Assembly: GCA_005239725.1 (NCBI GenBank)
Contig: SBBM01000036.1
Location: 1 to 44,194 of the forward strand
Reading direction: 5' to 3'
DNA from: Planctomycetales bacterium
GTDB taxonomy: Bacteria > Omnitrophota > Gorgyraeia > Gygaellales > Profunditerraquicolaceae
Length of the DNA stretch: 44,194 nt
Positions 1,049-41,198 of this stretch are shown here, piece by piece (positions within the stretch are counted from its first letter, which is position 1; every line of letters begins with the position of its first letter). Made by a program: the position numbers and the translations under genes. Below the pieces are notes generated by a model. It searched no databases and was not told the origin of the DNA. It saw only the letters and a list, made by a program, of their open reading frames with translations.

Positions 1049-1812
1049 CCATCGCCATCAAGGCCGTGCAAACCAGCGGTGATATCTTGATCGATTATTT
1101 TGGTAAATTGCATGACTTTAGGCAGAAGAACCAAAATATTCGTGATTTAGTGACCGAAGTTGATATCCTGTCGGAAAAGAATATCCAGGAAAAGATCAAA
1201 GAGGTTTTTCCCTATCACGCTATTAACGGTGAGGAAGTGAGAGCTCAAAAGACGGATTCTGAGTTTGTATGGCATATCGATCCTCTTGATGGTACAGTCA
1301 ATTATAGCCAGGGGATAACGTTGTGTGCCATCTCTATTGGTCTTGAGAAAAATGGTGAGATTATTGCAGGGGCAACGTATAATCCATTTTCGCAAGAACT
1401 TTTCTACGCCTCCAAAGGTCAGGGGGCCTTTTTAAACGGGAAACAGATTTTTGTTTCGCAGAAAAAAGATGTCCAAGACGGTCTTTATGCCGCAGCCTTT
1501 TCATCAGCACGTTCCACGAAGAAGAAAAACGAATATGAAATATTCGGCCGGATGAATGACACAACACGGGGCGTATTGAGAACCGGTTCTGCAGCGCTGA
1601 ATCTCGCTTATCTAGCGTGTGCCAGGATTGATGGCTTCTGGGCTAAAGAGTTGTTCAGCTGGGACCTCGCTGCGGGGATCCTTCTTGTTAAAGAGGCCAA
1701 TGGCATCGTTGTCTGTGCTAAAGGCCTTGAGTATAAACTCCAAGATGGGGTACTGATTGCCACTAACAGGTTTTTGGGCGAACCCCTGGTAAAAATGCTG
1801 GTCGGATTATAG
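1030..1812 (+). CDS. Inositol monophosphatase family phosphatase
   Basis: This 260-aa protein is a Mg-dependent sugar or alditol phosphatase of the IMPase/SuhB/CysQ superfamily. The metal-binding motifs appear in the right order: DLVTEVD, then INGEE, then DPLDGTVN near residue 83, then WDLAAG near residue 210. Length matches the family (about 260 aa). The GTG start at 1030 has an AAAAAGGAG ribosome-binding site a few bases upstream and lies inside the preceding dehydrogenase gene, implying translational coupling. The substrate cannot be read from sequence. Next to a mannitol-1-phosphate dehydrogenase homologue, an alditol or hexose phosphate is the natural guess. Confidence 0.85.
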   Translation: MSQEYLAIAIKAVQTSGDILIDYFGKLHDFRQKNQNIRDLVTEVDILSEKNIQEKIKEVFPYHAINGEEVRAQKTDSEFVWHIDPLDGTVNYSQGITLCAISIGLEKNGEIIAGATYNPFSQELFYASKGQGAFLNGKQIFVSQKKDVQDGLYAAAFSSARSTKKKNEYEIFGRMNDTTRGVLRTGSAALNLAYLACARIDGFWAKELFSWDLAAGILLVKEANGIVVCAKGLEYKLQDGVLIATNRFLGEPLVKMLVGL

Positions 1813-3355: not shown

Positions 3356-3365
3356 GGAATTGAAT

Positions 3366-4463
3366 ATGGAAAAGAAAAGGCAGGACCACGCGGATCATCA
3401 TTATTCTGCGCCCGAAAAAATAAAAATTGGGAATCGGGTTATTGGGCGAGGACAAAAATGTTTTATTATTGGAGAAATCGGCTCTAACCACAATCGCAAT
3501 AAAGGGGTTGTTCGAAAATTAATCGATGCGGCCGCTCAGGCTAAGTTTGATGCAGTAAAATTCCAGATCTATGATCCCCAAGAGGCCTTCAGTAAGAACG
3601 TCACCACGACCGATGTTGGTCTGGAGCATATGTATGGGAAATGCGCTTGGTGGGAAGTTGCCCGTGATCGGATATTAATGCCGCGGGAATGGTTTCCTGA
3701 GATGTTTGACTATGCCAGGGAAAAAGGTCTTATTGTCTTTTCAACGGTCCATCGAGTCGAGGATTTTGATTTTCTATTGAAATTAGGGGTGGACTTATTT
3801 AAGATTGCCTCAATCGATTGCCATCACCTGCCATTGCTTAAAGAAGTAGCCAAGCTCAATAAGCCGCTTATCATCTCAACGGGCATGGCGACGACAAAAG
3901 AGATCGATGAGACCGTTAAGACCTTGGTCGGGGCAGGAAATAAGAAATTGAGCCTTTTACATTGCATCTCGTGCTATCCGCCTAATCCGTCGTTCATTAA
4001 TCTGAAGAATATAATGATGCTCAAGCAAAGATATGGATTTCCAGTCGGATATTCCGATCATTCCATCGGTAATACCTTTTCCGTTGCTGCGGTGGCCTTA
4101 GGGGCCTGTATTATTGAAAAACATATCACCCTTGATCGAAAGACAAAAGGGCCAGATCATCATTTTGCCCTTGAGCCCAAGGACATGCGAGAGCTGGTTG
4201 ATTCTGTTAGAGGGGTTGAATTAGCTTTAGGGGGGTTCGGGCGCATCCTATCGGAGGATGATCTGGCGGCCCGCATAATGATCAGGCGCAGTATTGTGGC
4301 CAGGCGGGATATTAAAAAAGATGACCCCATCACGCTGGAGGCAATAAAATTCGCCCGCCCTGGGGATGGGATATCTCCTAATCTTTTTGCTAAGCTTGAA
4401 GGGTGCAGGGCCAAAAAGGATATAGCTGCCGAGGAGATCCTCTCTTGGGACATGATAAGGTGA
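3366..4463 (+). CDS. neuB: NeuB-family nonulosonic acid (sialic acid-type) synthase
   Basis: NeuB enzymes condense phosphoenolpyruvate with an N-acyl-mannosamine-type sugar to give sialic, legionaminic or pseudaminic acid. This 365-aa product has the NeuB TIM-barrel signatures GEIGSNHN, VKFQ, YSDHSIG and EKHITLDR, and a C-terminal antifreeze-like SAF domain (RRSIVARRDI, RPGDGISP). Length and layout are normal. An in-frame ATG at 3330 also exists, but the ATG at 3366 has GAGGAAT 7 nt upstream and removes a tail lying over the upstream gene. It is followed by VOC, PIG-L and GNAT genes. The exact sugar cannot be told from sequence; no NeuC-like 2-epimerase or canonical NeuA is visible in the window. 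Confidence 0.9.
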   Translation: MEKKRQDHADHHYSAPEKIKIGNRVIGRGQKCFIIGEIGSNHNRNKGVVRKLIDAAAQAKFDAVKFQIYDPQEAFSKNVTTTDVGLEHMYGKCAWWEVARDRILMPREWFPEMFDYAREKGLIVFSTVHRVEDFDFLLKLGVDLFKIASIDCHHLPLLKEVAKLNKPLIISTGMATTKEIDETVKTLVGAGNKKLSLLHCISCYPPNPSFINLKNIMMLKQRYGFPVGYSDHSIGNTFSVAAVALGACIIEKHITLDRKTKGPDHHFALEPKDMRELVDSVRGVELALGGFGRILSEDDLAARIMIRRSIVARRDIKKDDPITLEAIKFARPGDGISPNLFAKLEGCRAKKDIAAEEILSWDMIR

Positions 4464-4466
4464 TCG

Positions 4467-4868
4467 ATGAGATTAGACCATATTGGGGTGGTTGTCGGTG
4501 ATTTAGGGGCGTCCGGGAAATATTATCAAGACCTTTGGGGGGTCCATGAGTTTTCTCCCACGATCGATGAGCCACAACAAAAGGTTAAGATTATGTTCGC
4601 CCGGATGAGAGAGTCGTTGTCTCCCGCCATAGAGCTGATCCAGCCTATTGACGAGAATTCCGCGGTTTATAATTTTTTGAAAAAAACAGGGGGCGGACTT
4701 CACCATATTTGTTATGAAGTCGATGACCTAGATAAGTCTATTGAGCATTTTAAGCGCCAGAAGGCCTTGGTTATTGGGAACATCTATCCAGGGGCCGGGC
4801 ACCAGGGCCGCCGGGTTATCTGGTTCTACACCCGCCTTAAAGAATTAATTGAATTAATTGAAAGGTAA
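4467..4868 (+). CDS. VOC-family protein, methylmalonyl-CoA epimerase-like
   Basis: This 133-aa product is a vicinal-oxygen-chelate protein. Putative metal ligands are spaced as in methylmalonyl-CoA epimerase: His5 (DHIGVVV), Glu56 (IELIQP), His79/80 (LHHICYEVDD) and Glu129 (LIELIE). The gene sits 3 nt after neuB and 5 nt before the deacetylase gene. It could epimerise a 2-substituted acyl group carried on CoA or on the ACP encoded at 1830, or an alpha-proton of a keto-sugar. These are inferences; VOC proteins are functionally broad, so only the fold and metal site are well supported. Confidence 0.8.
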   Translation: MRLDHIGVVVGDLGASGKYYQDLWGVHEFSPTIDEPQQKVKIMFARMRESLSPAIELIQPIDENSAVYNFLKKTGGGLHHICYEVDDLDKSIEHFKRQKALVIGNIYPGAGHQGRRVIWFYTRLKELIELIER

Positions 4869-4873
4869 GAGAG

Positions 4874-5560
4874 ATGTCCCAAAGAAAAAGAGTCTTGATT
4901 GTTGCTGCCCATCCTGATGATGAGATCTTGGGATGCGGGGCAACCATCGTCAGACTAATTGCGTCTGGTTATGAGGCTCATGTGCTGATTTTAGGTGAAG
5001 GGGTCACTTCACGTGACAAACAAAGAGATCCTCAAAAAAGAAAAAAGGGACTGGATGAATTAAAACAACACGTGCATAGGGCCAATAAGATTATCGGCGT
5101 CAAAGATGTTATTCTGGCTAATTTACCTGATAATCGTTTTGACGCGTTGGCCTTGTTGGATGTAGTCAAGATCGTAGAGAAGGTAAAAAAGGATAAAAAA
5201 CCAGATGTTATTTTTACCCATTTCCAGAACGATTTGAACATCGATCATGGGGTCACTCATCGGGCGGTCATGACTGCCACCAGGCCCATGTGGACAGAAA
5301 CGGTTAAAGAAATTTATTCTTTTGAGGTGGCTTCATCTACGGAATGGAATTATCCTTTAACATTTTCTCCAGATATTTTTTATGATGTATCTAAGACTCT
5401 CGAGGTGAAGTTACAGGCGCTTAAAGAATATAAAGTAGAGATGAAAGACCCGCGGCATCCGCGGTCCATCGAAGGCGTGACGCTGCAGGCCCAGCTGTGG
5501 GGCTTAAAGACAGGCGTACGTTACGCTGAGGCCTTTAAGACCGTAAGGGTCATGCGGTGA
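4874..5560 (+). CDS. PIG-L/LmbE family N-deacetylase
   Basis: This 228-aa protein is a zinc-dependent de-N-acetylase of the type that removes acetyl from N-acetylglucosamine derivatives. The hallmark AAHPDDEILGCG is near residue 11 and supplies two metal ligands and the catalytic Asp. The second motif, THFQNDLNIDH near residue 117, completes the site. A GAGAG ribosome-binding site precedes the ATG, and the gene overlaps the following acetyltransferase gene by 4 nt. Deacetylase followed directly by acetyltransferase suggests exchange of an N-acyl group on an amino sugar, possibly on the NeuB product or its precursor. Confidence 0.88.
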   Translation: MSQRKRVLIVAAHPDDEILGCGATIVRLIASGYEAHVLILGEGVTSRDKQRDPQKRKKGLDELKQHVHRANKIIGVKDVILANLPDNRFDALALLDVVKIVEKVKKDKKPDVIFTHFQNDLNIDHGVTHRAVMTATRPMWTETVKEIYSFEVASSTEWNYPLTFSPDIFYDVSKTLEVKLQALKEYKVEMKDPRHPRSIEGVTLQAQLWGLKTGVRYAEAFKTVRVMR

Positions 5561-6114
5561 GCCAGCTTACCTTGATCAATATCTTGGAAACCGATGAAAT
5601 TATTAGAGAAAGAGTTAGGCAATGGCGCAACAAAGAAGAGATTCGTCGATCGATGTTCAGCCAAGGCGTTATTTCTCGGGATGAGCACGCGCGATGGCTG
5701 GCTGGCTTAATTCATCGCGTCGATACTAAGTTTTGGGTGGTCTTTTTAGAAGGTATCCCCATAGGCGCGGCTTATGTGCACCATATGGAGCCTGAGCGCC
5801 GGCGCACACAGTGGGGTTTTTATATAGGAGAAGAGACCTATAAGGCTAAAGGATTGGGCCAGCAAATTCTTTTTGATTTACTAGAAGAGGTCTTTGATCG
5901 GATGGCCTTTGAGGTGCTGGTGACGGAGGTCTTATCCGATAATACACGAGCCATTGGGATTTATCGAAAATTTGATTTTAGTGAACAAAAAAGCTATCGC
6001 ACCAAGGATCAGCGTGAGGTGATTGTCTTTGAATTCACCCGACCTGTGTGGGAAAAGACAAAAGAAAGATTAAGAATGATGTGCCAAGCAAGGCTTGCGA
6101 AATATGTCCAATAA
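5557..6114 (+). CDS. GNAT family N-acetyltransferase (PseH/RimJ-like)
   Basis: This 185-aa protein has the GNAT pattern of sugar N-acetyltransferases. An N-terminal VRQWRNKEEIRR segment is followed by WVVFLEGIPIGAAY, a central WGFYIGE strand, the acetyl-CoA loop KAKGLGQQI, and a C-terminal SDNTRAIGIYRKFDF. This arrangement is like PseH, which acetylates the 4-amino group of an amino-deoxysugar in pseudaminic acid synthesis. The GTG start overlaps the deacetylase stop by 4 nt. Close pairing with PIG-L and NeuB supports a role in nonulosonic or amino-sugar acylation. Other acyl donors, including the ACP, cannot be excluded. Confidence 0.82.
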   Translation: MSQLTLINILETDEIIRERVRQWRNKEEIRRSMFSQGVISRDEHARWLAGLIHRVDTKFWVVFLEGIPIGAAYVHHMEPERRRTQWGFYIGEETYKAKGLGQQILFDLLEEVFDRMAFEVLVTEVLSDNTRAIGIYRKFDFSEQKSYRTKDQREVIVFEFTRPVWEKTKERLRMMCQARLAKYVQ

Positions 6115-7307: not shown

Positions 7308-8768
7308 ATGGACAGTGCGACCGTTAAAAAGAAATTACGTTTGTACCCAGGACAGTTTCCTTTATGGATAATCTTTGGAGTCTGCGGCCTGTATTGGTTA
7401 TATTTATTTTTCTTTAGCCAAATGCGTGTTGTCTTTGATGCGGTTGGTTATGAATATCTAGGCAGGATGGTGTATGAGAAGGGTTGGTCTGAATTTTTTC
7501 GCACTGGGCCACACCGCGAGCCACTTTACGCCTGGCTGATCTCTGTTGCGATGCATTTAGCTGAAGTGTTTTCTTGGCCCTATCAACAAGTCTTGAAGTT
7601 CTTACAAGTAGGGTTATTATTGGGCACTCAATCTTTGCTGTTGATCGTGCTTCGCCAGTTGAAAATCCATCATAGGATTATTCTGGCGATTTTGTTGTAT
7701 GGTGGGTTTTCACCAGCATTGGTGGGTGCGACCTTTAGTCTTTTCTCAGAGATTGTCACTATGCCTTTTGTCCTCTTGAGTTTAATATGCATGATTGAGT
7801 CTTGGCCTGTTGTATGGCGCAGATCTGCCCGGTGGGTCGCGATGATGGCCGTATTGACGACATTGGCGATATGTCTGGTCGCCTTGAGTAAGGCCATTTT
7901 TATTGGGGTATTTCTTTTATATCTGGCGCTGGTCTTTATCGCTGCACTTATTATTAGTCTTAAAGAAAAAGAAAATTATTGGGCGCATGCGGTCGGCTAT
8001 GTTGGTGTATCGTTAGTTTGCCTCTTTGGTTTAATATTCATGTACGGATCTTTGTATAAAAAGTATACCGGTTCCTTCCAGTACACGGATCGATATAATT
8101 ACGCTATCTTGGGCTCGGCCTATAAACGTGCGCAAAAGGTGACGCCAGAAATATTTTGGGCACATGTGGCTAGCATCCCAGGCAAAGGGGTCTGTCGGAG
8201 ATTCTTTAGCGAAGAGGAGTGCGTGTATTGTGAGGCCTATTCTGCTGATCACCTGGGAGGGGTGTTTTTGTCTCAGGCAACCGCCGGGGTGCCGATGGAA
8301 CAACAAGATGCAAAGATCTTGGAGGTGGCCAAAGGATTAATTAAGGCAAACCCTGGGCAGTACTTAATGTATATGCTCTATGAGGCGGCCAGGATGCCCT
8401 TTTGGGAGTCAACCCAGGCGGGATTTGTGGTGTATCCTCCCTGGCTGGAAACTCTATTCGCCCAGGGCATCGTCAAGGATGGGATTCGCTTGTTTATCTC
8501 TTTATTGACTATTGGCGCATTAATCTTTATGTTGTTTCATCTGGCAGGACATTGCCTTTCCTTGTTCCATATCACTGAAAAGCCAAGTCCCTCCCAGGTC
8601 TCATTTTTTATAATTTTTGTAGTGTTAACGTATACAAGCTTTTTCACATTCACGTTTGTCTTGACGCGCTATGCCTTTCCCATAGCGCCATTATACCTGG
8701 CTATGATTGCCTGTTGGCTGAACACCTTGTTGGGGTTAAGTCCTAAGGAGGAAGTTTGCGGAAAGTAA
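7308..8768 (+). CDS. Polytopic membrane protein, GT-C-type glycosyltransferase candidate
   Basis: This 486-aa protein has about 9-11 predicted membrane helices. Its first extracytoplasmic loop, after helix 1 (residues about 18-36), carries FDAVGYEYLGRMVYEKGW with Asp44 and then HREPLY around residue 69. That places an acidic residue where polyprenyl-phosphate-sugar-dependent GT-C enzymes (PMT/ArnT-like) have it. A second large soluble loop at about residues 255-365 has five Cys within roughly 25 residues (KGVCRRFF, EECVYCEAY). It lies directly upstream of a DPM1-like GT2 gene, the usual source of a lipid-linked sugar donor. The family is not firmly recognised; the GT-C role is inferred from topology and partner. 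Confidence 0.6.
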   Translation: MDSATVKKKLRLYPGQFPLWIIFGVCGLYWLYLFFFSQMRVVFDAVGYEYLGRMVYEKGWSEFFRTGPHREPLYAWLISVAMHLAEVFSWPYQQVLKFLQVGLLLGTQSLLLIVLRQLKIHHRIILAILLYGGFSPALVGATFSLFSEIVTMPFVLLSLICMIESWPVVWRRSARWVAMMAVLTTLAICLVALSKAIFIGVFLLYLALVFIAALIISLKEKENYWAHAVGYVGVSLVCLFGLIFMYGSLYKKYTGSFQYTDRYNYAILGSAYKRAQKVTPEIFWAHVASIPGKGVCRRFFSEEECVYCEAYSADHLGGVFLSQATAGVPMEQQDAKILEVAKGLIKANPGQYLMYMLYEAARMPFWESTQAGFVVYPPWLETLFAQGIVKDGIRLFISLLTIGALIFMLFHLAGHCLSLFHITEKPSPSQVSFFIIFVVLTYTSFFTFTFVLTRYAFPIAPLYLAMIACWLNTLLGLSPKEEVCGK

Positions 8769-9517
8769 GAATCAATAAGATGTCGGTTATTGTCCCCGTC
8801 TTTAATGAAAAAGATACGATCCTAGAGGTGATCCGGGACATACAAGGCGTATCCTTGCCAGAAGGGATTGAGAAAGAGATTATCATTATCGATGATGGCT
8901 CGCACGATGGAACCAAGGAACTGCTTAAGACCTTGGAGAATCAGGATAATATCCGCGTCTTTTATCATTCCCCAAACCGCGGCAAGACATATGCGGTTAA
9001 ATTTGGGTTGGAACAAATGACCGGGGATGTGGCGGTGATTCAGGATGCGGATTTGGAGTATTCACCGCGTTATTATCCCCACCTATTGGAGCCGATCTTA
9101 AAAGGCGAAGCCCAGATTGTTTATGGGTCTCGTTTTCTGGGGCGTGTCGAAAATATGGGGATGATCAATCGGATCGCCAATGGCATCTCCAATTGGACAA
9201 TGAACAAATTGTATGGTACCTTGATCACAGATTTTCACACCTGTTTAAAAGTCTTTAGACGTGAAGTTTTAGGTGAGATTAGCATTGTCTCGGAAAGATT
9301 CTCTTTTGATACTGAAATTACGGCAAAGCTGTTGAAGAAAAAGTTTCAGATCAAAGAAATTCCCATTGAATACAAGGCACGTTCGCGCTCACAAGGGAAA
9401 AAGATCACCTGGTTAACCGCCTTGCAGGCGTATGGTGTTTTATGGAGAGTTTATTTTACAAAAGATTCGAAGTTTCTTGGAGAGAAGCAATGCGCAGGTG
9501 GGTTGCATGAACATTAA
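8756..9517 (+). CDS. Glycosyltransferase family 2, dolichol/polyprenyl-phosphate sugar synthase-like
   Basis: This 253-aa protein has a GT-A fold: start MSVIVPVFNE, IIIIDDGSHDGT, NRGKTYAVKFG and the metal-binding IQDADLEY, then YGSRF and the DFHTCLKVFRR acceptor region. This is the DPM1-like subfamily that transfers a sugar from an NDP donor to a polyprenyl phosphate. There is no C-terminal membrane domain. The TTG at 8756 has AAGGAGG four bases upstream, so it is preferred over the ATG at 8780, which lacks a visible ribosome-binding site. It overlaps the GT-C-like gene by 13 nt, supporting a donor-synthase/transferase pair. Confidence 0.85.
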   Translation: MRKVRINKMSVIVPVFNEKDTILEVIRDIQGVSLPEGIEKEIIIIDDGSHDGTKELLKTLENQDNIRVFYHSPNRGKTYAVKFGLEQMTGDVAVIQDADLEYSPRYYPHLLEPILKGEAQIVYGSRFLGRVENMGMINRIANGISNWTMNKLYGTLITDFHTCLKVFRREVLGEISIVSERFSFDTEITAKLLKKKFQIKEIPIEYKARSRSQGKKITWLTALQAYGVLWRVYFTKDSKFLGEKQCAGGLHEH

Positions 9518-10277
9518 TCCATTAAAAAGAGCATTATCACGCCATGAGATAACATATGGGTGTTGGGTGACATTGGCCCATCCACTTATCCCGGAAATCT
9601 TATCTCACGCAGGGTTCGACTGGTTAACCATGGATATGGAACATAGTTCCATCGACTTGGCAGATTTGCTCCCTTTGATTATTTCAACGCAAGCCAATGG
9701 GATGGTGCCGCTGGTACGTATCGGGGAGAATGACCCAAATTTGATCAAACGGGTGATGGATGCCGGGGCCTATGGGGTGATTGTGGCGAATATCCATAGC
9801 GCCCGGGAAGCCCAGCAGGCCATTGATTCGGTTAAATATCCACCTTACGGAAAAAGAGGTGTGGGACTTTACCGCGCCCAACGCTACGGCTGGGGATTTG
9901 AGGCTTACAAAAAATGGTTGGCCAAAGAGAGTGTGGTTATTATTCAGATCGAACATATCGATGCCGTCAACGATATTGAGAAGATATTCGCCGTGGAAGG
10001 AATCGATGCGTTTCTGATTGGGCCCTATGATCTTTCGGCATCGATGGGTAAGCCCGGAGAGTTTCATGATAAAAAGGTCGAAGCCGCCATTGCCAAAGTC
10101 CTCGCTGCAGGCAAACACCACCGAATCCCCGCTGGTTTTCATGCGGTGGCTTTTAACACTCAAGAGGCCATTCGCCGGCGCAGGCAAGGTTTCAAATTTT
10201 TGGGCTTTAGTCTCGATTCTATTATCCTGGGCGAATCGGCTGCTCGGGCATTAAAGACAATCAAAGGAAAAAAATGA
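9507..10277 (+). CDS. HpcH/HpaI-type class II aldolase
   Basis: This 256-aa product belongs to the metal-dependent HpcH/HpaI/GarL family, which reversibly joins pyruvate-type nucleophiles to aldehydes to give 2-keto-3-deoxy acids. Diagnostic segments are WLTMDMEHSSID, VRIGENDPNLIKRVMDAGAYG, YPPYGKRGVG, QIEHIDAVNDI (metal Glu) and FLIGPYDLSASMG (metal Asp). The ATG at 9507 is chosen over an upstream 9432 start because it begins at the conserved N-terminus (NPLKRAL) and overlaps the preceding stop by only 11 nt. Placement beside HAD phosphatase and KdsB-like genes suggests synthesis of a Kdo-like acid rather than catabolism. Confidence 0.88.
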   Translation: MNINPLKRALSRHEITYGCWVTLAHPLIPEILSHAGFDWLTMDMEHSSIDLADLLPLIISTQANGMVPLVRIGENDPNLIKRVMDAGAYGVIVANIHSAREAQQAIDSVKYPPYGKRGVGLYRAQRYGWGFEAYKKWLAKESVVIIQIEHIDAVNDIEKIFAVEGIDAFLIGPYDLSASMGKPGEFHDKKVEAAIAKVLAAGKHHRIPAGFHAVAFNTQEAIRRRRQGFKFLGFSLDSIILGESAARALKTIKGKK

Positions 10278-11185
10278 ACGTTAGTATCAACACGGCAACT
10301 TTTGCCGAATATAACGCTACGCCACTGAACAGATTGAAAAAGGCAAAAATAGCATATTCTTTAAATCCTTTTAAGCGTACCTTAAAAGAAGATGAGGTCA
10401 TCTTGGCTGCCCGGGATTCTGTTGGGATGATCGCAGGAACCGAACCACTGAACCAACGGGTCTTAAGTCAATTGCCACGATTGAAGGTGATCTCGCGTTG
10501 TGGGGTGGGTATCGATAATGTGGATTTAGACTATGCCCAAAAGCAAGGCATTAAGGTTTTTGCTACACCGACGGCCCCTGCGGATGCCGTTGCGGAGTTG
10601 ACCATCGGATTGATCTTGAATCTCTTGCGCCAAGTGGTGGCGATGAGCCAGGATTTGAAAAGCGGGGTATGGAAAAAACAGATGGGCTTTCTTTTGAGAG
10701 GCAAAACCGTGGGGATCATTGGGATGGGGCGTATCGGACAAAAGACTGCGCAATTGCTGCAGCCTTTTGGCGTCGAGGTCCTGTATTACGATATCCGTAA
10801 GGTTCGATTCGTGAGTGGCTGCCAGGCGGTTACACTACCTTTTCTTTTAAGAAAATCGGATATTGTAACTGTGCATGCCGCGTTGGGTCACGATCAGAAA
10901 TCTTATCTAGGATCGACAGAGCTCGCGAAAATGAAAAAAGGAAGCTGGTTGATTAATGTAGCTCGTGGTGGTGCGGTGGATGAACAAGCGCTCTACGATG
11001 CCTTAGTCCGCGGACATCTTTGTGCCGCTGCCCTGGATGTATTTTCTCAAGAACCCTATCAAGGTCCTTTAAAAAATTTACCGCAGGTTATCCTCACGCC
11101 CCATATTGGTTCCTATGCGCTGGAGGCTAGGGTTCAGATGGAATCAGAAGCCGTTGACAATCTTTTAAGAGGATTAAAGAAATGA
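10274..11185 (+). CDS. D-isomer-specific 2-hydroxyacid dehydrogenase
   Basis: This 303-aa NAD-dependent dehydrogenase resembles phosphoglycerate dehydrogenase. It has the N-terminal substrate domain ending in RCGVGIDNVD (catalytic Arg region in SRCGVG), the NAD loop GIIGMGRIGQKTA near residue 148, NVARGGAVDE, the catalytic Glu in VFSQEP and the catalytic His in TPHIGSYALEA. No C-terminal ACT domain is present, so it is the short form. The start overlaps the aldolase stop by 4 nt and its stop overlaps the next SDR by 4 nt. It could reduce a 2-keto acid, or oxidise a 2-hydroxy acid, linked to the aldolase; the substrate is unknown. Confidence 0.88.
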   Translation: MNVSINTATFAEYNATPLNRLKKAKIAYSLNPFKRTLKEDEVILAARDSVGMIAGTEPLNQRVLSQLPRLKVISRCGVGIDNVDLDYAQKQGIKVFATPTAPADAVAELTIGLILNLLRQVVAMSQDLKSGVWKKQMGFLLRGKTVGIIGMGRIGQKTAQLLQPFGVEVLYYDIRKVRFVSGCQAVTLPFLLRKSDIVTVHAALGHDQKSYLGSTELAKMKKGSWLINVARGGAVDEQALYDALVRGHLCAAALDVFSQEPYQGPLKNLPQVILTPHIGSYALEARVQMESEAVDNLLRGLKK

Positions 11186-12084
11186 AAATAAGAGCCATTG
11201 TTTTTGGGGGTTCAGGATTCTTGGGAAGCCATGTCGCCGATGCCTTAAGTCAACGAGGATACGACGTATTGATCTATGATCAGATTCGCTCGAATTATTT
11301 AAGCGGCACCCAGCAAATGATTGTTGGTGATATTCTTGATTTTAAAAAGGTCAAGGAAGCGCTCCGGGGTTGTGATTATGCCTACAATTTTGCCGGTTTA
11401 GCCAGTATTGACAATGCCCCGCTAGACCCCTTAAAGACGATCCAACAAAATGTCTTGGGAAACACCCACATCCTGGAGGCCTGTCGTCAAAACAATATTA
11501 AGCGATTTGTATTTGCATCTTCCATTTATGTCTATAGCAACCTCGCGCCTTTTTACCGCAGTAGCAAGCAGGCCAGCGAATTGATTATCGATGATTATGG
11601 TAAGGTTTTTGGTCTGAAATACACGATCCTTCGTTACGGGTCTTTGTATGGAAAACGTACGAATCAATCCAATTTTATCCATCGCATTATTGAACAGGCC
11701 ATTCGTGAAGGTAAGATCACACGGATAGGAGATGGGGAAGAGATCCGCGATTATATCCATGTCCTGGATGCCGCGAAATGTAGCGTGGATATTCTTCATG
11801 ATGAATACATCAATCAGCATGTACTCTTAACGGGGACCCAATCCACCAAGGTCAAAGACCTATTAATCATGATCGGTGAGATATTGGGCGGAAAGGTGGA
11901 GATTCAATATCTCCCTGGGACCAATAGCGATCATTATACAATGACACCTTATTTCTTCCGTCCCCAATTAGCCAAGAAACTTATTTCATCTACTTATCAT
12001 GATTTGGGGCAAGGTCTTTTAGATGTGATCTATGATATTCATGAAAAGTCGAATAAAGATAAGATGGGAGTATGCCCGCAGTGA
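11182..12084 (+). CDS. NAD-dependent epimerase/dehydratase (extended SDR)
   Basis: This 300-aa product has the extended-SDR fold: cofactor loop FGGSGFLGSHVA at residues 8-19, acidic residue after strand 2 (IYDQ), GDILDF, NFAGLASI, the Ser region FASSIYVYS and the catalytic Tyr-x3-Lys as YRSSK. The substrate-binding half has LRYGSLYGKR and the usual IGDGEEIRDYIHVLDAA. It belongs to the UDP-glucose-4-epimerase/dTDP-glucose-dehydratase class, but the substrate cannot be assigned. It overlaps both neighbours (4 nt and 13 nt), putting it in the aldolase-HAD-KdsB module. Confidence 0.85.
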   Translation: MKIRAIVFGGSGFLGSHVADALSQRGYDVLIYDQIRSNYLSGTQQMIVGDILDFKKVKEALRGCDYAYNFAGLASIDNAPLDPLKTIQQNVLGNTHILEACRQNNIKRFVFASSIYVYSNLAPFYRSSKQASELIIDDYGKVFGLKYTILRYGSLYGKRTNQSNFIHRIIEQAIREGKITRIGDGEEIRDYIHVLDAAKCSVDILHDEYINQHVLLTGTQSTKVKDLLIMIGEILGGKVEIQYLPGTNSDHYTMTPYFFRPQLAKKLISSTYHDLGQGLLDVIYDIHEKSNKDKMGVCPQ

Positions 12085-12734
12085 GATTCATTCAGGCGGC
12101 CTTTCTAGACTTTGATGGGGTGATCTTAGAGTCGGTAGAAGTTAAGACATGGGCGTTTAAGAAACTTTTTGAGGCATATCCGCAACACATTGGTGCCATC
12201 GTTTCCTATCATAGAAAGAACACAGGTATTTCTAGGTTTGTTAAAATTAAATATATATACAAAGAAATTATTAAAATACCATTATCCAATGAACATTTTC
12301 AATATCTTTGCCAGCGATATTCTGGGCTAGTTTTTACGCGTGTGTTGCGGTGCGCATTTGTCAAGGGGGCAAAAGAATTTTTGGCTAAATACTATCGCAA
12401 AATACCTCTTTTTATCATCTCCGGCACCCCTCAAGAGGAAATACGGGAAATTGTTGAACAAAGAAAATTGAGTCAATACTTTCAGGGGGTTTTCGGCTCC
12501 CCTCACCGCAAAGATTATTGGGTCAACAAGATTTTAGGCGATAAAAAAATTCCTGGGCGACAAACAATATTTATTGGTGATGCTCAAAGTGATTATGAGG
12601 CGGCCCAAAAAGGGGGGTGCATTTTTTTTGCCCGCATTCTTCCAGAAAAAGAAGATATCTTTGTTCAGAAGGATATTGACCACCGGATCAAGGATTTAAG
12701 TGAGTTAGACCTTATCTTAGAAAGGAACTATTAA
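12072..12734 (+). CDS. HAD-superfamily phosphatase
   Basis: This 220-aa protein has the haloacid-dehalogenase motifs in order: nucleophile motif FLDFDGVILES (Asp13, Asp15), motif II FIISGTPQEE, a lysine in SPHRKDYW and acidic motif IV FIGDAQSDYEAA. The helical cap lies between motifs I and II, as in phosphoglycolate-phosphatase-like (type C1) members. The start has GGGAG just upstream and overlaps the SDR gene. Within a set containing an aldolase and a KdsB-like enzyme it is a candidate for the phosphatase step that KdsC performs in Kdo synthesis, although it is not a KdsC homologue by layout. The stretch around 12236-12300 is unusually AT-rich for the locus. Confidence 0.82.
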   Translation: MPAVRFIQAAFLDFDGVILESVEVKTWAFKKLFEAYPQHIGAIVSYHRKNTGISRFVKIKYIYKEIIKIPLSNEHFQYLCQRYSGLVFTRVLRCAFVKGAKEFLAKYYRKIPLFIISGTPQEEIREIVEQRKLSQYFQGVFGSPHRKDYWVNKILGDKKIPGRQTIFIGDAQSDYEAAQKGGCIFFARILPEKEDIFVQKDIDHRIKDLSELDLILERNY

Positions 12735-12775
12735 CCCATCATCCGTTATGCTATTAGAAGGCAGAATTTTCGCTG

Positions 12776-13675
12776 GTGATTAAACAAATTTTAAAATTTA
12801 TTTTACCAGCCCCGCAACGTCAGCTGCTTAAGAGGGTTTGTGGCAAAGTTTCTCTTGGCAGTGATCGTCTCGCGGGCAAGTTAATTAATGCCCTGCCTGA
12901 CCGGACCCGACTTTTTCTAAAATCTCAGATTTCTCTAACGCGACGGATGGATTTGACTAAAAAGGATATTTATATGCATGTGGATTCCGCTATTGAGTAT
13001 GATACGCGGCTTTATTCCTGTGCCAAAGAGCCTGAAATGGAAGAATGGTTCGAAAATTTTTTTAAGGAGGGAGAGGTCTTCTTTGACATCGGGGCTAACG
13101 TGGGTTCCTATTCTTTGCTGGCCACTAAATTGCTTGATGGGAAAATCAAGGTGTATGCCTTTGAGCCGGGATTTTTAAATTATGCCCAGCTGAATCGAAA
13201 TATTCATCTTAACGGCTGCCAGGATTCTGTGACGGCGTTGCCTGTTGCTTTATCGGATGCCACCACCTTAAGCCCCTTTAACTACAGCAACCTTGACTGC
13301 GGCGCGGCGAACCATGCCTTGGGTGTGGCGGTCGATTATAAGGGAGATGTCTTTATTCCTGTTTTTCGCCAATTGCTTTTATCCTATCGTCTGGACGATC
13401 TGGTCGAATCATTTCATCTCCCCTTTCCTCATCATATTAAGCTTGATGTTGATGGTATTGAGTTTTCAGTCCTTAAAGGGGCTGAAAAGGTATTGAGAAA
13501 TCCGGCTTGCCGGAGCATGATGGTGGAAATAAATGAAGCGGATCCATCTTTTAGAAAAACAATTGCATTCTTATCAACTCAGGGATTGTCGTTCTATGCC
13601 AAGTATAAATATAACGAGGGAGGCCAAGCAGGACCAGCGTCTTTCTTGTTTAATTATCTTCTTGTAAAGAAATGA
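12776..13675 (+). CDS. FkbM family methyltransferase
   Basis: This 299-aa protein has an N-terminal helical extension of about 80 residues followed by the FkbM-type SAM domain: motif I VFFDIGANVGSYSL near residue 101, AFEPGFLNYAQLNRNIHLNG, and HIKLDVDGIEFSVLKGAEKVL near residue 221. FkbM proteins commonly O-methylate sugars in surface polysaccharides. The start is a GTG at 12776 after a 41-bp gap, the first real gap in a run of overlapping genes; its ribosome-binding site is weak (AGAAGG about 15 nt upstream). It ends with an ATGA overlap to the KdsB-like gene. Confidence 0.85.
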   Translation: MIKQILKFILPAPQRQLLKRVCGKVSLGSDRLAGKLINALPDRTRLFLKSQISLTRRMDLTKKDIYMHVDSAIEYDTRLYSCAKEPEMEEWFENFFKEGEVFFDIGANVGSYSLLATKLLDGKIKVYAFEPGFLNYAQLNRNIHLNGCQDSVTALPVALSDATTLSPFNYSNLDCGAANHALGVAVDYKGDVFIPVFRQLLLSYRLDDLVESFHLPFPHHIKLDVDGIEFSVLKGAEKVLRNPACRSMMVEINEADPSFRKTIAFLSTQGLSFYAKYKYNEGGQAGPASFLFNYLLVKK

Positions 13676-14460
13676 ATTCAACCATTATCGCTATTATTCC
13701 TGCCCGAATGGGTTCCTCGCGTTTTCCCGGTAAGCCCTTGGCTAAGATCCGGGGATTAAGCATGGTGGAGCATGTATACAGACGTTCGACCATGTCTAAG
13801 AATCTTAAAGCGGTTTATGTAGCCACCTGTGACAATGAGATCAAGGAAGCAGTAGAGCGCTTTGGCGGTAAGGTCATTATGACAAGCAATAGCCACGAGC
13901 GGGCCTCTGACCGGGTAGCCGAGGCGATGCTTAAAGCGGAACGTCTTTTAAGAAAGCGAGTGGATATCGTTGTCATGGTGCAGGGCGATGAGCCCATGGT
14001 CTTTCCGGAGATGATTGATGAGTCAGTCAAACCACTACAAAAAGATGCCAGCGTCTTCGTTAGTAATCTGATGGCCCCGATTGCCTCTACCAAGGAACAA
14101 GATGACCCCAATACGATCAAGGTTATCGTTGACAAGAAACATTTTGCTTTATATTTTTCTCGATCACCCATCCCTTATCGCGGTCGCAGTCAAGGGACTG
14201 TCTTTATGTTTAAGCAGGTATGTATTATTCCTTTTAAACGCGATTTCTTGTTAAAGTTTAACAGCCTTGGGCAAACACCTTTGGAGATTGCCGAATCGGT
14301 GGACATGCTGCGGGTCCTCGAGCATGGCGGAAGGGTTCAGATGGTCTTAACTAAATTCCAGACATATAGCGTGGATACACCCGATGACCTTAAAAAGGTT
14401 GAAAGACATTTTAGAAAAGACAGGCTTTTCCCTCGATATCAAAAAATATTGGGTCAATGA
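13672..14460 (+). CDS. KdsB-like CMP-3-deoxy-ulosonate cytidylyltransferase
   Basis: This 262-aa product resembles 3-deoxy-manno-octulosonate cytidylyltransferase, which activates Kdo with CTP. Matching segments are IPARMGSSRFPGKPLA at residues 9-24, VATCDNEI, a HERASDRVAEA region, VMVQGDEPM, FSRSPIPYRG and the C-terminal ESVDMLRVLEHG and SVDTPDDL. It is slightly longer than E. coli KdsB. No Kdo-8-phosphate synthase (KdsA) is visible here. The locus instead has an HpaI-type aldolase and a NeuB, so its natural substrate may be a different keto-deoxy acid. It overlaps both flanking genes by 4 nt. Confidence 0.85.
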   Translation: MNSTIIAIIPARMGSSRFPGKPLAKIRGLSMVEHVYRRSTMSKNLKAVYVATCDNEIKEAVERFGGKVIMTSNSHERASDRVAEAMLKAERLLRKRVDIVVMVQGDEPMVFPEMIDESVKPLQKDASVFVSNLMAPIASTKEQDDPNTIKVIVDKKHFALYFSRSPIPYRGRSQGTVFMFKQVCIIPFKRDFLLKFNSLGQTPLEIAESVDMLRVLEHGGRVQMVLTKFQTYSVDTPDDLKKVERHFRKDRLFPRYQKILGQ

Positions 14461-15389
14461 TGAATAAATATCTTGTCACGGGCGCTGCTGGATTTATCGG
14501 GTCGGCCATTGCCACCAAGCTTTTAGAAAAGGGTCACGCCGTATGGACGATTGATAACTTAACGACGGGCTTTAAAAAAAATCTCCCTGCAGGGATTCAT
14601 TTTATCAAAGGTGACTGCCAGTCACCGGCGAGTATCGCGAAATTAAAAAAAGTTTGTTTTGACGCCATCCTTCATATCGCCGGACAATCATCGGGAGAGG
14701 TGAGTTTTGATGATCCTGTTTATGATCTACGTACCAATACCGAGTCCACCTTGCGGCTGATTGATTATGGATTGAAGACAGGATGCCCTAGGTTTATCTA
14801 TGCCAGCTCCATGTCGGTGTATGGCAAGGTCCCCGCAGATGCGATTGCCGAGACCTTTGCCTGCCAGCCTTTGTCATTTTATGGGGTAGGCAAATTGGCC
14901 AGTGAACATTATCTGCGTATTTACCAATCTCAAGGGTTAAGACCAACCTCATTACGGTATTTTAATGTGTACGGACCTCATCAGAACATGGCAAATCTGC
15001 GTCAAGGGATGGTGAGCATTTATCTCGCGCAGTTTATCACCAATAAAGAGGTGATTGTTAAGGGGGCCAAAGATCGTTTCCGCGATTTTGTTTATATCGA
15101 TGATGTGGTAGATTTTACAACGAGTATTATCCATGATGAGCGCTCCTATGGGGCGATTTATAACTTTGGGGCTGGGCGCAAGACGACGGTAGGGGAATTA
15201 TTAGAGGCCATTGCCCGCTTAAGTGGTCTTAAAAGAAAGATTATCATTGCCCCCGGCACGCCGGGCGACCAAAAGGGTATTTATGCTGATATGTCGTTGG
15301 TGCAAAAGACATTTGGATTTAGATATAAATATGATTTGGAAAAAGGCCTGACCCAAATGATTCATTGGGCCAAGAAAGCGAGCTGGTAA
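14457..15389 (+). CDS. NAD-dependent epimerase/dehydratase (UDP-glucose 4-epimerase-like SDR)
   Basis: This 310-aa extended SDR has YLVTGAAGFIGSAIA at the N-terminus, IDNLTTG after strand 2, a Ser in YASSMSVYG and the catalytic YGVGK. LRYFNVYGPHQN, DRFRDFVYIDDVVD and NFGAGRKTTVGELLEAI complete the family pattern. This is the GalE/WbpP-like C4-epimerase type acting on a UDP-sugar or UDP-N-acetylhexosamine. The ATGATGAAT start overlaps the KdsB-like stop. The following gene starts at the base after its TAA. Confidence 0.87.
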   Translation: MMNKYLVTGAAGFIGSAIATKLLEKGHAVWTIDNLTTGFKKNLPAGIHFIKGDCQSPASIAKLKKVCFDAILHIAGQSSGEVSFDDPVYDLRTNTESTLRLIDYGLKTGCPRFIYASSMSVYGKVPADAIAETFACQPLSFYGVGKLASEHYLRIYQSQGLRPTSLRYFNVYGPHQNMANLRQGMVSIYLAQFITNKEVIVKGAKDRFRDFVYIDDVVDFTTSIIHDERSYGAIYNFGAGRKTTVGELLEAIARLSGLKRKIIIAPGTPGDQKGIYADMSLVQKTFGFRYKYDLEKGLTQMIHWAKKASW

Positions 15390-16307
15390 GTGACTAAAGT
15401 AGCCAGCATTCCTCAGTGCCGTTTTTGTAGCGCGTCCGCAGAGTTTCAGTCGATCAAAGGCCATTACGTTTATGGCGGAGATCCCCAACAGCATTTCTGG
15501 CAGTGTCGTTCTTGCCAGATGATCTACCTTGATCCCCCCATGAGCGAGGCGCAAGAACATCATTTTTATAAACAGGAGTTTGAAAAGTACATGGACCAGC
15601 GTTCGGGAGAAGATACTAACTGGTCAGGGCCAGAGCAACATTTTTGTGCTAATCAGCGAGAAGTCAATCGCCGGATACCGTTTCTAGAACCTTATCTTAA
15701 TGACGTGAAAACCGTCCTTGAGCTCGGCTGTTCATCAGGGTTTATGTTAAGTGCGTTGAAAAGTCATGGTAAAAAGGTCTACGGCATTGACCCCTCGGAT
15801 GGCTTCATTGAGTATATAAAAGGCAAAGGCATTGCGGTCTTTGCCAGTGATGAAGATTTTAAGAAGGCAATCAATATCCCCTTGGATCTCATTATTCATT
15901 ATTATGTCTTTGAGCATATTCGCCATCCTGTTGAGTTCATCAAAAAATATATGACCTGGATCAAGAAGGGCGGCCGGATGATCTTTGAGGTGCCCTGCGC
16001 CACTGATCCGTTGGTGGAGCTTTATAAGGTGCCTGCGTTTGAACAATTTTATTGGTCGGTTGCCCACCATTGGTATTTTACAAAGGAAAGCCTGAGCCGT
16101 GTCCTGGAGAAGACAGATTATGCCTTTCAGCTCTTTGCGGAACAACGCTACGATATCTCCAATCACATGGTCTGGATGCTGGAAGGAAGACCAGGAGGCC
16201 TGGGAAGATATAATCATGTCTTTGATGAAGAATTAAACCGCCAATATAAAGAGCAGTTAAAGAAATATTGGATCTGCGATACTATCGTGGCGGTTGTTGA
16301 AAAATAG
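15390..16307 (+). CDS. Zinc-ribbon class I SAM methyltransferase, third
   Basis: This 305-aa protein begins with a Cys-rich segment (CRFCSA, CRSC) and then a SAM-binding domain with VLELGCSSGFMLSAL near residue 111 and GIDPSDG, then YYVFEHIRHP and GGRMIFEVPC. It lacks the C-terminal second Rossmann-like domain seen in the proteins of 2114-3355 and 6104-7291. At the catalytic-loop position it reads VAHHWYFT, different from both. It starts with GTG immediately after the preceding stop codon. The likely role is methylation of a sugar nucleotide or glycan; the acceptor position is unknown. Confidence 0.82.
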   Translation: MTKVASIPQCRFCSASAEFQSIKGHYVYGGDPQQHFWQCRSCQMIYLDPPMSEAQEHHFYKQEFEKYMDQRSGEDTNWSGPEQHFCANQREVNRRIPFLEPYLNDVKTVLELGCSSGFMLSALKSHGKKVYGIDPSDGFIEYIKGKGIAVFASDEDFKKAINIPLDLIIHYYVFEHIRHPVEFIKKYMTWIKKGGRMIFEVPCATDPLVELYKVPAFEQFYWSVAHHWYFTKESLSRVLEKTDYAFQLFAEQRYDISNHMVWMLEGRPGGLGRYNHVFDEELNRQYKEQLKKYWICDTIVAVVEK

Positions 16308-16308
16308 C

Positions 16309-17049
16309 ATGGTTAAAGCCATCATTAAATATTTTTTAAAGCAACTCGGCTATGAGCTCATCTCTAGGAAGGCCCCGGCCCAACTCTACTATGAGCTCGA
16401 TTGGGAATTTCATGATCTTTATGAGTTGGCACAGGAAAAATGCCAGATGACCAAGACAGATAACACGTTAAGACGTCAGCGGCATTATACACTCAATTAT
16501 CTTTTAAAAAACGCACCATTGGCCAATGGAGAAGTCTGCGAGTTAGGGTGCTGGCGCGGGCTTTCGGCTTATCAAATCGCCTATCATTTAAGGACCGCGG
16601 GCGCTAAGAATGTATTTCATATTTTTGATTCTTTTGCAGGGCTTTCGCCTTTTGAGGCGGCGGATATTGGGCAAGGCGGGCAAGATAGCACAGAGACACG
16701 GCGCAAGCAGTTTGCCTGCCCCTTGGAGACGGTTGCCGATAATCTCAAGGAGTTTTCTTTTATCAAGTATTATAAGGGGTGGATCCCCACACGTTTCTCT
16801 GAGGTCGCAAATCATTTATTTTCTCTGGTGCATATCGATGTCGATATGTATCAGCCCATCGCAGATTCCTTTCGTTTCTTCTATCCCCGTTTGGTCAAAG
16901 AGGGGATTATGATCTTCGATGACTACGGCTGCACCCAATTCCCCGGCGCTAAAAAGGCGGTGGATGAATGTTTAAGGGAATTTCATCAACCCTTTTTTGT
17001 ACCACTGCCATCCGGGCAGGCCTTCTTGATTAAGGGTTTAAGAGACTAG
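16309..17049 (+). CDS. TylF/MycF-type O-methyltransferase
   Basis: This 246-aa protein resembles macrocin O-methyltransferase (TylF), which methylates sugar hydroxyls with SAM and Mg. Visible signatures are EVCELGCWRGLSAYQIA (motif I), HIFDSFAGLSPFE, the metal-binding VHIDVDMYQP and IMIFDDYGCTQFPGAKKAVDE. The start used is the ATG at 16309, one base after the preceding stop; a TTG at 16294 would add five residues inside the upstream gene. No strong ribosome-binding site is visible, so coupling to the upstream gene is likely. Confidence 0.88.
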   Translation: MVKAIIKYFLKQLGYELISRKAPAQLYYELDWEFHDLYELAQEKCQMTKTDNTLRRQRHYTLNYLLKNAPLANGEVCELGCWRGLSAYQIAYHLRTAGAKNVFHIFDSFAGLSPFEAADIGQGGQDSTETRRKQFACPLETVADNLKEFSFIKYYKGWIPTRFSEVANHLFSLVHIDVDMYQPIADSFRFFYPRLVKEGIMIFDDYGCTQFPGAKKAVDECLREFHQPFFVPLPSGQAFLIKGLRD

Positions 17050-18849
17050 ATGCCGAGAGTTTTTCTAACTGATCATGTGGTTGCGAAAGTCCCAGCGGAT
17101 TTTACTCGCCTACGCCTTTTTACCACCAAAAGACTTTCTTTAGCGAAGAGAGATCGCCTGCGTCGGTTAGGAATCAAACGTTTTTATCTCCCAACGTTGT
17201 CATTAGAGGATACCGGGCGTTTTTTTGTTGAATTTGATCGGTTTTGGGACAGGTTGATTAAGGATTTTAGAGAGGACCATGTCTTCTGGCGTAATGGTGT
17301 GTCTTCCAAGATGCAGGAATGGGAAAATTCAGTCGGATATTGGGCCGTTATTTTGTTTGCTTTAACCAAGGCACTTGATCCGCAAGGCGATGTGTGGATC
17401 ATGACCCAGAGCCTGGAAGAGGAAGATTTAATCAAGGCGTGGGGCAAGAAGCAGGGTTGGACAATTGTCGAGCCAACTAGACTGCCCCGCTGGTTAAGGC
17501 GTGGCATTCAGGAGGTCAAGAATTTTGTTTGTTATCTCTATTTGGTTTGTATTGCCTTTCAACGAAAAATATTTTCTGCACAATCACAGAATTCCTCATT
17601 AATGCCAGAGAAGAATGCTGTCTTGCTGGCATCGATGTTTTATCCCGCCTCATTCAATAGAGGGCAATATCAAGATCCTTTTTTCGGGGATTTGCCTGAA
17701 TTTTTATCGAATCACGCAAGACAAGGCGTGTATCTAAGCGATTCGATTCCCCTGCCTGATGCGTCTCTAACTGTAACCGTTAAGGCATGCCGCAACGTTA
17801 TTCTAAAAATGCCTTTAATGTTGCTTAGCTGGATAGAGTGGGGGGGAGTTCTTCTACGGATTTTGGGAAGACGCATTAAATTTGACCGTGCGTTTTTTAT
17901 GGACTGTGATTTCTCCCAGCTTCTGGAGTGGCGGGCACGCTCTTTTCAGTTCCATTTTAATTGGCATGCAGAAGTGTATTATGAGGCGGTGAGAAAAATA
18001 TACCGCCAGCATATTTTTAAAGAATTGATTTTCAATTTCGAAGGCAATGTCTTTGAGCGTGGATGCCTACAGGCCGTTAACGGATCTTCAATATGGACCT
18101 GTGGATATAGTCAGGGAGTTATTTATCCGGCCAATCTGAAGCTCAGACTGTCTTCTCAGGAAAGTAGACGGCGGCCGGAGCCTGCGCGAATTGTGTGCAC
18201 CGGCCCACAGGCCCGGGAATCTCTCTTGAAGGTAAGTCATCGGACAAGTCATCAGTTGGTCGCAGGATGCGCCCTTCGCAAAGCCCCTGCATTCTCAGTC
18301 TATGACCCTGGGGATCGTCAGACGATTTTAATGGCCTTGGATGGGGTTTACAATATCGTGACCGTTCTAGATTGGCTTTTAGAGCATCACCATGTATTTA
18401 AAGATTATCGCCTGCGGTTACGTGCGCATCCCAATGTCTCGTTTGCCAAGATTCAACAGCAATGCCTCGGTGAATTCCCGGAGAATTTTATTATATCTGA
18501 CCGGACTTTGCAGGAAGATATTTCAGAGAGTAGCTGCATATTGTATCGGCACACCTCCATTGGCCTGCAGGCCTTGAGCCATGGAAGGCCTGTAGTACAT
18601 TTGTCTATTGATTGTCCTTTGCCAGGAGATCCATTAGAAGATATTACGTTAGGGAAATGGATCGTTCGCGATGCAGAAGAATTAAAGGACACCTTAAACA
18701 CGATTGCTCGGTTAACGCCCGCACAACACGCATCAATAAGAAACGTTTGCCGTCAGACAGAAGGATATTTTGCCTCTCCTTGCATAGAGGCTATGGGAGA
18801 TTTCCTCCCAGGAGAATCAAGGAAAGAAGAATGTCTCAACCGCGCGTAA
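17050..18849 (+). CDS. Large surface-carbohydrate biosynthesis protein, GT-B-like
   Basis: A soluble-looking 599-aa protein that I do not confidently recognise. The layout and C-terminal half resemble large surface-carbohydrate proteins found in spirochaete O-antigen loci. An FEGN element near residue 330 and an RAHPN element near residue 458, followed by RHTSIGLQALSHGRPVV near residues 500-516, recall the acidic-G and HP elements of GT-B sialyl- and Kdo-transferases. Given NeuB and KdsB-like genes in the same locus, it could transfer a CMP-activated keto-sugar. That is inference. The ATG follows the previous stop directly, and the gene ends 19 nt into the next GT2 gene. Confidence 0.55.
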   Translation: MPRVFLTDHVVAKVPADFTRLRLFTTKRLSLAKRDRLRRLGIKRFYLPTLSLEDTGRFFVEFDRFWDRLIKDFREDHVFWRNGVSSKMQEWENSVGYWAVILFALTKALDPQGDVWIMTQSLEEEDLIKAWGKKQGWTIVEPTRLPRWLRRGIQEVKNFVCYLYLVCIAFQRKIFSAQSQNSSLMPEKNAVLLASMFYPASFNRGQYQDPFFGDLPEFLSNHARQGVYLSDSIPLPDASLTVTVKACRNVILKMPLMLLSWIEWGGVLLRILGRRIKFDRAFFMDCDFSQLLEWRARSFQFHFNWHAEVYYEAVRKIYRQHIFKELIFNFEGNVFERGCLQAVNGSSIWTCGYSQGVIYPANLKLRLSSQESRRRPEPARIVCTGPQARESLLKVSHRTSHQLVAGCALRKAPAFSVYDPGDRQTILMALDGVYNIVTVLDWLLEHHHVFKDYRLRLRAHPNVSFAKIQQQCLGEFPENFIISDRTLQEDISESSCILYRHTSIGLQALSHGRPVVHLSIDCPLPGDPLEDITLGKWIVRDAEELKDTLNTIARLTPAQHASIRNVCRQTEGYFASPCIEAMGDFLPGESRKEECLNRA

Positions 18850-41183: not shown

Positions 41184-41198
41184 AGACGGGAAGTTATA

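Follow-up and report, generated by a model that had tools for sequence, protein, structure and literature searches.

Gene Run and Linkage

We analyzed a stretch of 44,194 nucleotides (contig SBBM01000036.1, hereafter the window) from an Omnitrophota metagenome-assembled genome (MAG; 1.46 Mb, 80% complete); the contig is a surface-polysaccharide locus. Six consecutive genes at 9507-14460, all on the plus strand, encode an HpaI-type aldolase, a D-2-hydroxyacid dehydrogenase (2HDH), an extended SDR (SDR1), a candidate HAD phosphatase, an FkbM methyltransferase and a KdsB-like cytidylyltransferase; this run, with its counterparts in other genomes, is referred to as the cassette (Table 1). An earlier sequence-only reading had described the genes as consecutive with mostly overlapping ends, and this description holds: the successive junctions are -4, -4, -13, +41 and -4 bp, i.e., four of the five overlap. 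Genes for a second SDR (SDR2) and two methyltransferases follow directly, again with ends that overlap or abut, and further downstream there are a protein of ~600 amino acids, glycosyltransferases, a ligase-like gene and a flippase-like gene.

Table 1. Cassette genes and downstream features of the window.
Feature	Coordinates	Strand	Basis of assignment
HpcH/HpaI-type class II pyruvate aldolase, proposed C-C bond former	9507..10277	+	PF03328, E 3e-35; ATG at 9507
2HDH, phosphoglycerate dehydrogenase (PGDH)-like	10274..11185	+	PF02826, E 4e-54; PF00389
Extended SDR (SDR1), NAD-dependent epimerase/dehydratase family	11182..12084	+	PF01370, E 9e-43
HAD-family phosphatase candidate	12072..12734	+	PF13419, E 3e-15
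FkbM methyltransferase, probably accessory	12776..13675	+	TIGR01444/PF05050
Putative KdsB-like CMP-ulosonate synthetase, second paralogue	13672..14460	+	PF02348, E 1e-45; PRK13368/TIGR00466
Second extended SDR (SDR2), accessory	14457..15389	+	PF01370; 4-bp overlap with KdsB-like gene
Methyltransferase, accessory	15390..16307	+	PF13489
TylF-like methyltransferase, accessory	16294..17049	+	PF05711
~600-aa protein, candidate glycosyltransferase for the CMP sugar	17050..18849	+	(K/R)xHP motif; resembles TIGR04326

We searched for the aldolase in 384 Omnitrophota genomes, of which 53 were positive. The neighborhood sample consisted of 40 neighborhoods, KdsB-selected loci and 18 named genome loci, and yielded 61 distinct aldolase loci, for all of which the selection criterion was similarity to genes of the window. 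The window-type aldolase defines type A (38 loci), and a more distant aldolase group defines type B (14 loci). A KdsB-like gene was found within the stretch read in 46 of the 61 loci, on the same strand every time and with a median gap of ~1 kb; several of the loci without this gene stop at contig edges. At the level of genomes, the aldolase was present in 34 of 46 Omnitrophota genomes with a non-canonical KdsB, compared to 19 of the 338 others, in a hand tally from ranked lists (odds ratio ~48); the associated p value of 4e-25 should be taken as "strong" and not literally, because genomes are not independent. The distance matrices of the two proteins are also correlated (r = 0.74, permutation maximum 0.34), although shared inheritance likewise yields such a correlation. 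The gene set is far beyond chance, as the pair is found again in dozens of other genomes, always on the same strand.

The same pair occurs in seven phyla besides Omnitrophota, and in two domains. The carriers belong to Thermodesulfobacteriota, Bdellovibrionota, Ignavibacteriota, Nitrospirota and Elusimicrobiota, and include one Nealsonbacteria genome from the Candidate Phyla Radiation (CPR) and two genomes of the archaeon Methanoperedens. The sequence-only reading had made its proposal depend on co-occurrence of the aldolase and KdsB-like genes in relatives; this was found in 33 of the 38 type A loci and across at least eight phyla. In the cultured alphaproteobacterium Acuticoccus sp. I52.16.1, genes for the aldolase (40686-41477 of the record), an acylneuraminate-type cytidylyltransferase, PGDH, HAD and SDR proteins lie in this order on a plasmid (identity to the window proteins: aldolase 41%, PGDH 45%, SDR 43%). 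Its cytidylyltransferase represents a different subfamily from that of the window enzyme, and the exchange of one cytidylyltransferase for a functional analogue points to a pathway, not to genes that are adjacent by chance. Among the plasmid-borne HpaI homologues that were inspected, Acuticoccus is the sole cassette carrier, the other three being degradation operons without a cytidylyltransferase. No relative of the cassette was detected in viral contigs, and none that was convincing in phages.

The cassettes were also compared for gene content. The core consists of the aldolase, the cytidylyltransferase, the 2HDH and a phosphatase, to which is added an SDR or, in its place, a GmhA-like isomerase together with a Gfo/Idh oxidoreductase. 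In the 38 type A loci, we counted the KdsB-like gene in 33, the 2HDH in 26, the ~600-aa family in 19, HAD in 15, SDR1 in 14, Gfo/Idh in 12, the GmhA-like isomerase in nine, a putative cyclase in eight, inositol monophosphatase (IMPase) in six and FkbM in four; a phosphatase of either the HAD or the IMPase type is present in 19. The six-gene set of the sequence-only reading therefore needs to be amended, in that FkbM is excluded from the core by its frequency while the other five genes stay, and the 2HDH, to which no role had been assigned, is conserved to almost the same degree as the KdsB-like gene (it is present in 10 of the 14 type B loci as well). SDR1 and the GmhA-like isomerase are mutually exclusive among the type A loci, and since the two never co-occur, they look like alternative precursor modules on one aldolase/2HDH/KdsB-like core. 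The type B cassette comprises the aldolase, an FSA-like aldolase, a GmhA-like isomerase, Gfo/Idh, two short SDRs, HAD, the KdsB-like enzyme and 2HDH; the type C cassette includes an HMGL-like aldolase, an Fe-S protein and HAD. In five loci (L138, L140, L143, L144 and L145), an HMGL-like aldolase fused to an MptE-like domain adjoins the HpaI-type aldolase, mostly with an LdpA-like Fe-S protein and often with a KdsB-like gene.

Some neighbors of the window run recur as well. SDR2 relatives are present in 10 of the 38 type A loci, and relatives of the PF13489 methyltransferase lie near KdsB-like/SDR2 genes in L037, L038, L043 and L121. The beginning of the window (20-1812) contains a gene for a mannitol-dehydrogenase family protein followed by an IMPase family gene; the cassettes of L040, L045, L047 and L154 include an IMPase.

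Aldolase, KdsB-like Enzyme and Candidate Transferase

Judged by its sequence, the aldolase is a member of the HpcH/HpaI class II family outside the characterized HpaI, GarL and RhmA subfamilies, with bit scores of 136-169 against the curated cut-offs of 369-441 for the models of these subfamilies. The closest solved structures are those of the sugar-acid aldolases GarL and YfaU. The window enzyme shares with the catabolic aldolases (HpaI, GarL, YfaU/RhmA) the fold family and the catalytic His46, Arg71, Glu149 and Asp175, which are kept in all groups, whereas it differs from them in its polysaccharide context and in Gln125, His150, Tyr174 and His212; these four residues are marks of the type A aldolase, and some are common to other cassette types. 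In the aldolase tree, type A, type B and Acuticoccus form one set (support 95/88), which is separate from GarL, YfaU and HpaI (100/99) and from type C.

The KdsB-like protein matches PRK13368 (NCBIfam) above the curated cut-off and the kdsB equivalog model TIGR00466 just above it, and it scores with KdsB models, not with PseF/NeuA models. We compared the type A set (n = 37) to 17 canonical rows, namely 15 kdsA-linked KdsB sequences, E. coli KdsB and KpsU (the KpsU row was transcribed from a printed alignment, except for its ends). The CTP/metal residues that we checked (R10, R15, K19, R78, Q98, D100 and D235, E. coli numbering) are all kept in the type A set. Four other residues, H181, Y185, E210 and Q211, are invariant in all 17 canonical rows, and we take them to be the Kdo (3-deoxy-D-manno-octulosonic acid) contacts of the E. 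coli complex. In the window enzyme these residues are replaced (H181Q, Y185I, E210D and Q211M), and the replacements are almost uniform in type A: Gln at 181 in 37/37, Ile at 185 in 30/37, Asp at 210 in 36/37 and Met at 211 in 35/37. The type B and type C enzymes have other consistent replacements. Because of these replacements, ordinary Kdo is an unlikely substrate of the KdsB-like enzyme. The C-terminal domain of KdsB is Kdo-binding (PMC3149649), and the metal ligands are Gln98, Asp100 and Asp235 (PMC2901514). The KdsB tree places canonical and cassette-linked rows on different sides of a split whose base has modest support.

The sequence-only reading had also pointed to a separate kdsA/kdsB set as a discriminating observation. 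The outcome differs between the relatives and the source genome. We found KdsA in 248 of 248 Omnitrophota genomes with at least 90% completeness, and a KdsB match in 366 of 384, usually canonical and in several cases adjoining kdsA; no KdsA is encoded in the cassette locus, and the canonical kdsA of relatives lies elsewhere, with the canonical kdsB. Since the relatives all keep KdsA and almost all keep canonical KdsB, the window-type gene is best viewed as a second paralogue. In the source MAG, neither KdsA nor canonical KdsB was found at 80% completeness, the KdsB-like gene being the only KdsB detected; given the state of the assembly and the presence of both genes in relatives, missing sequence is the simplest explanation. 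The reading of the KdsB-like enzyme as the sole KdsB of its genome, and hence as a Kdo enzyme, was rejected on the basis of the phylum-wide searches for KdsA and KdsB. KdsA had no match in the two Methanoperedens genomes and the Nealsonbacteria genome, all of which carry the aldolase/KdsB-like pair.

Two further observations concern cytidylyltransferases. Five loci (L128, L130, L132, L133 and L137) contain another KdsB group with the motif KQ[IV]GLYAF, or one close to it, and no aldolase nearby; its neighbor is a HAD gene in three of the five and, in L137, a Kdo-transferase-like gene, and it may serve yet another sugar. Locus L121 has two cytidylyltransferases, one KdsB-like and another of the CTP_transf_3 family, at 8193-8963 and 12781-13443 (minus strand), the second beside a 2HDH.

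The ~600-aa protein is a candidate transferase for the CMP sugar. Its homologues are found among 38 proteins of the fetched loci, beside many cassettes and often adjoining the KdsB-like gene; TIGR04326 is matched by 17 of 20 family members, and 19 of the 20 aligned members contain (K/R)xHP, the motif of CMP-sialic acid and retaining Kdo transferases (PMC12887879). The family thus shares the CMP-binding motif of sialyltransferases and of the retaining Kdo transferases KpsC, WbbB and KrkA, whereas the QXXXD nucleophile motif was not recognized as conserved and the similarity is non-significant: the best PDB profile matches, KpsC and WbbB, are weak (E 0.2-0.5), and a profile of one glycosyltransferase subgroup compared to the PDB retrieved nothing relevant. 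The AlphaFold model (pLDDT 40) is too poor to use.

Proposed Pathway and Alternatives

We consider it probable, with considerable room for doubt, that these genes form the biosynthetic core of a locus for surface polysaccharide and produce a CMP-activated 2-ulosonic acid that is not Kdo. In the most likely scheme, the aldolase would link the enolate of pyruvate, bound to a divalent metal, with an aldose or its phosphate to yield a 2-keto-3-deoxy sugar acid. The phosphate would be removed by the HAD enzyme, or by IMPase in some relatives; the KdsB-like enzyme would then convert the free acid and CTP to the CMP-acid, and a downstream glycosyltransferase, possibly the ~600-aa protein with its RxHP motif, would pass the CMP sugar to the glycan. 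The carbon skeleton may be prepared or tailored by the SDR, or by the GmhA-like isomerase and the Gfo/Idh oxidoreductase. The 2HDH may set the redox state of the skeleton or supply a 2-oxo acid; alternatively, its substrate could be an aldonate, or it could modify the product. The sugar-phosphate enzymes of the variant cassettes (GmhA-like, FSA-like and IMPase) fit an aldose-phosphate acceptor that is subsequently dephosphorylated. The aldolase route to a CMP-activated acid suggested by the sequence-only reading is thus supported by the linkage, the second KdsB paralogue and the non-Kdo residues, while its acceptor and product, together with substrate, direction and order of steps, are what we infer.

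The cassette resembles the Kdo pathway (KdsD-KdsA-KdsC-KdsB) in having an isomerase (in the variant cassettes), a C-C bond-forming step, a HAD-type phosphatase and CMP activation by the KdsB family. It differs in that a pyruvate-type HpaI aldolase takes the place of the phosphoenolpyruvate (PEP)-dependent KdsA, in the altered sugar-side residues of the KdsB paralogue, in the extra SDR and 2HDH, and in the presence of canonical kdsA/kdsB alongside it in relatives. The pathways of nonulosonic acids (NeuB/PseI/LegI with NeuA/PseF) likewise provide a CMP-activated 2-keto-3-deoxy acid for surface glycans; however, they use PEP-dependent synthases and NeuA-type enzymes, whereas the cassette combines an aldolase with an activating enzyme that is mostly of the KdsB type, and of the NeuA type in Acuticoccus. 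To our knowledge, PEP-dependent synthases are used to make every characterized CMP-activated 2-keto-3-deoxy sugar, namely Kdo and the sialic, legionaminic and pseudaminic acids. As the sequence-only reading had held, there seems to be no characterized pathway with this gene set: we found none in the open-access literature, which is weak evidence of absence. In Campylobacter coli 76339, genes BN865_07090-07140 encode an aldolase, PGDH, NAD epimerase, cyclase, a hypothetical protein and HAD consecutively beside a sialyltransferase, near capsular genes, and are listed as accessory genes with no function proposed (PMC3928612). This run resembles the window cassette by its annotated gene list, not by sequence comparison.

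Several points weigh against the proposed pathway. It is not obvious where the 2HDH would fit in a simple route of aldolase, phosphatase and CMP activation, and the HAD annotation leaves the substrate of the phosphatase unfixed. The statistics overstate independence, because the loci were picked by similarity to window genes and the lineages share ancestry and transfer. Furthermore, there are KdsB-like/2HDH loci without the aldolase (L121, L122, L124 and L136), so the aldolase may not be indispensable; in one of these, L124, a fumarylacetoacetate-hydrolase family gene (11245-12018, minus strand) sits between SDR1 and the HAD gene.

The conservation of the PGDH-type dehydrogenase, close to that of the KdsB-like gene, would be accounted for if the aldolase nucleophile were hydroxypyruvate, supplied by the 2HDH from D-glycerate or phosphoglycerate; the CMP product would then keep the C3 hydroxyl (Ko-like) instead of being 3-deoxy. 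HpaI-family aldolases can accept hydroxypyruvate as a donor. However, aldolase/KdsB-like loci without 2HDH exist (L046, L052 and L057-L060), and no hydroxypyruvate-selecting residue was recognized in the aldolase; we regard this version as improbable, and the remaining alternatives as weaker still. One of these is that the aldolase runs in the cleavage direction, in salvage or degradation of sugar acids, and is placed in polysaccharide loci to regulate sugar pools. The known relatives GarL, YfaU and HpaI are indeed catabolic, but the cassette aldolases form a separate clade, and they are surrounded by genes for cytidylyltransferases, glycosyltransferases, a flippase and methyltransferases, not by degradation genes as the catabolic homologues are, which makes this very unlikely.

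Two other alternatives, to which we assign equally little weight, detach the KdsB-like enzyme from the aldolase. A NeuB-like gene (3330-4463) lies 5 kb upstream of the run and is found again in seven of the 38 type A loci, and the KdsB-like enzyme might activate a nonulosonic acid from this PEP-dependent synthase, with the aldolase belonging to some other process. Yet NeuB is absent within the stretch read in 31 of these loci, compared to the KdsB-like gene being present in 33; a NeuA-like cytidylyltransferase is encoded separately in the source genome, on contig C57; and the model matches noted above favor KdsB over PseF/NeuA. Alternatively, the enzyme could be a capsule-type, KpsU-like CMP-Kdo synthetase for ordinary Kdo, with the aldolase nearby only incidentally, as its TIGR00466 score and its status as the only KdsB found in the incomplete genome would allow. 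Against this stand the replaced canonical residues (without exception at 181, nearly so at 185, 210 and 211), the grouping apart from KpsU and the kdsA-linked enzymes, the archaeal and CPR carriers without KdsA, and a linkage to the aldolase that is not incidental (46/61 loci).

The surroundings of the two nonulosonic-type genes may be recorded here. In the window, the NeuB/PseI-like synthase gene opens a group (3330-6114) whose next members encode a methylmalonyl-CoA epimerase-like protein of the VOC fold, a deacetylase of the PIG-L/BshB type and a PseH-like acetyltransferase; as a nonulosonic acid gene set, this is unusual. On contig C57, the NeuA-like gene (L002, 1207-1926, minus strand) adjoins amidotransferase-like and radical-SAM-like genes.

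Implications

With the aldolase-based route as the preferred interpretation, a broader and more tentative proposal, which we hold to be slightly less probable than its negation, is that the cassettes represent a widespread, horizontally moving family of such pathways in bacteria, including CPR, and in methane-oxidizing archaea, leading to several CMP-activated ulosonic acids. The modules (SDR, cyclase and HAD; GmhA-like, Gfo/Idh and IMPase; FSA, GmhA-like and SDRs; HMGL-like aldolase) would be interchangeable, and the KdsB pocket would change with the module. An aldolase route in organisms that lack KdsA, archaea as well as CPR bacteria, would, if real, imply undiscovered acidic sugars on many uncultured microbes, and would account for a large group of genes that are now annotated as "KdsB" and "HpaI".

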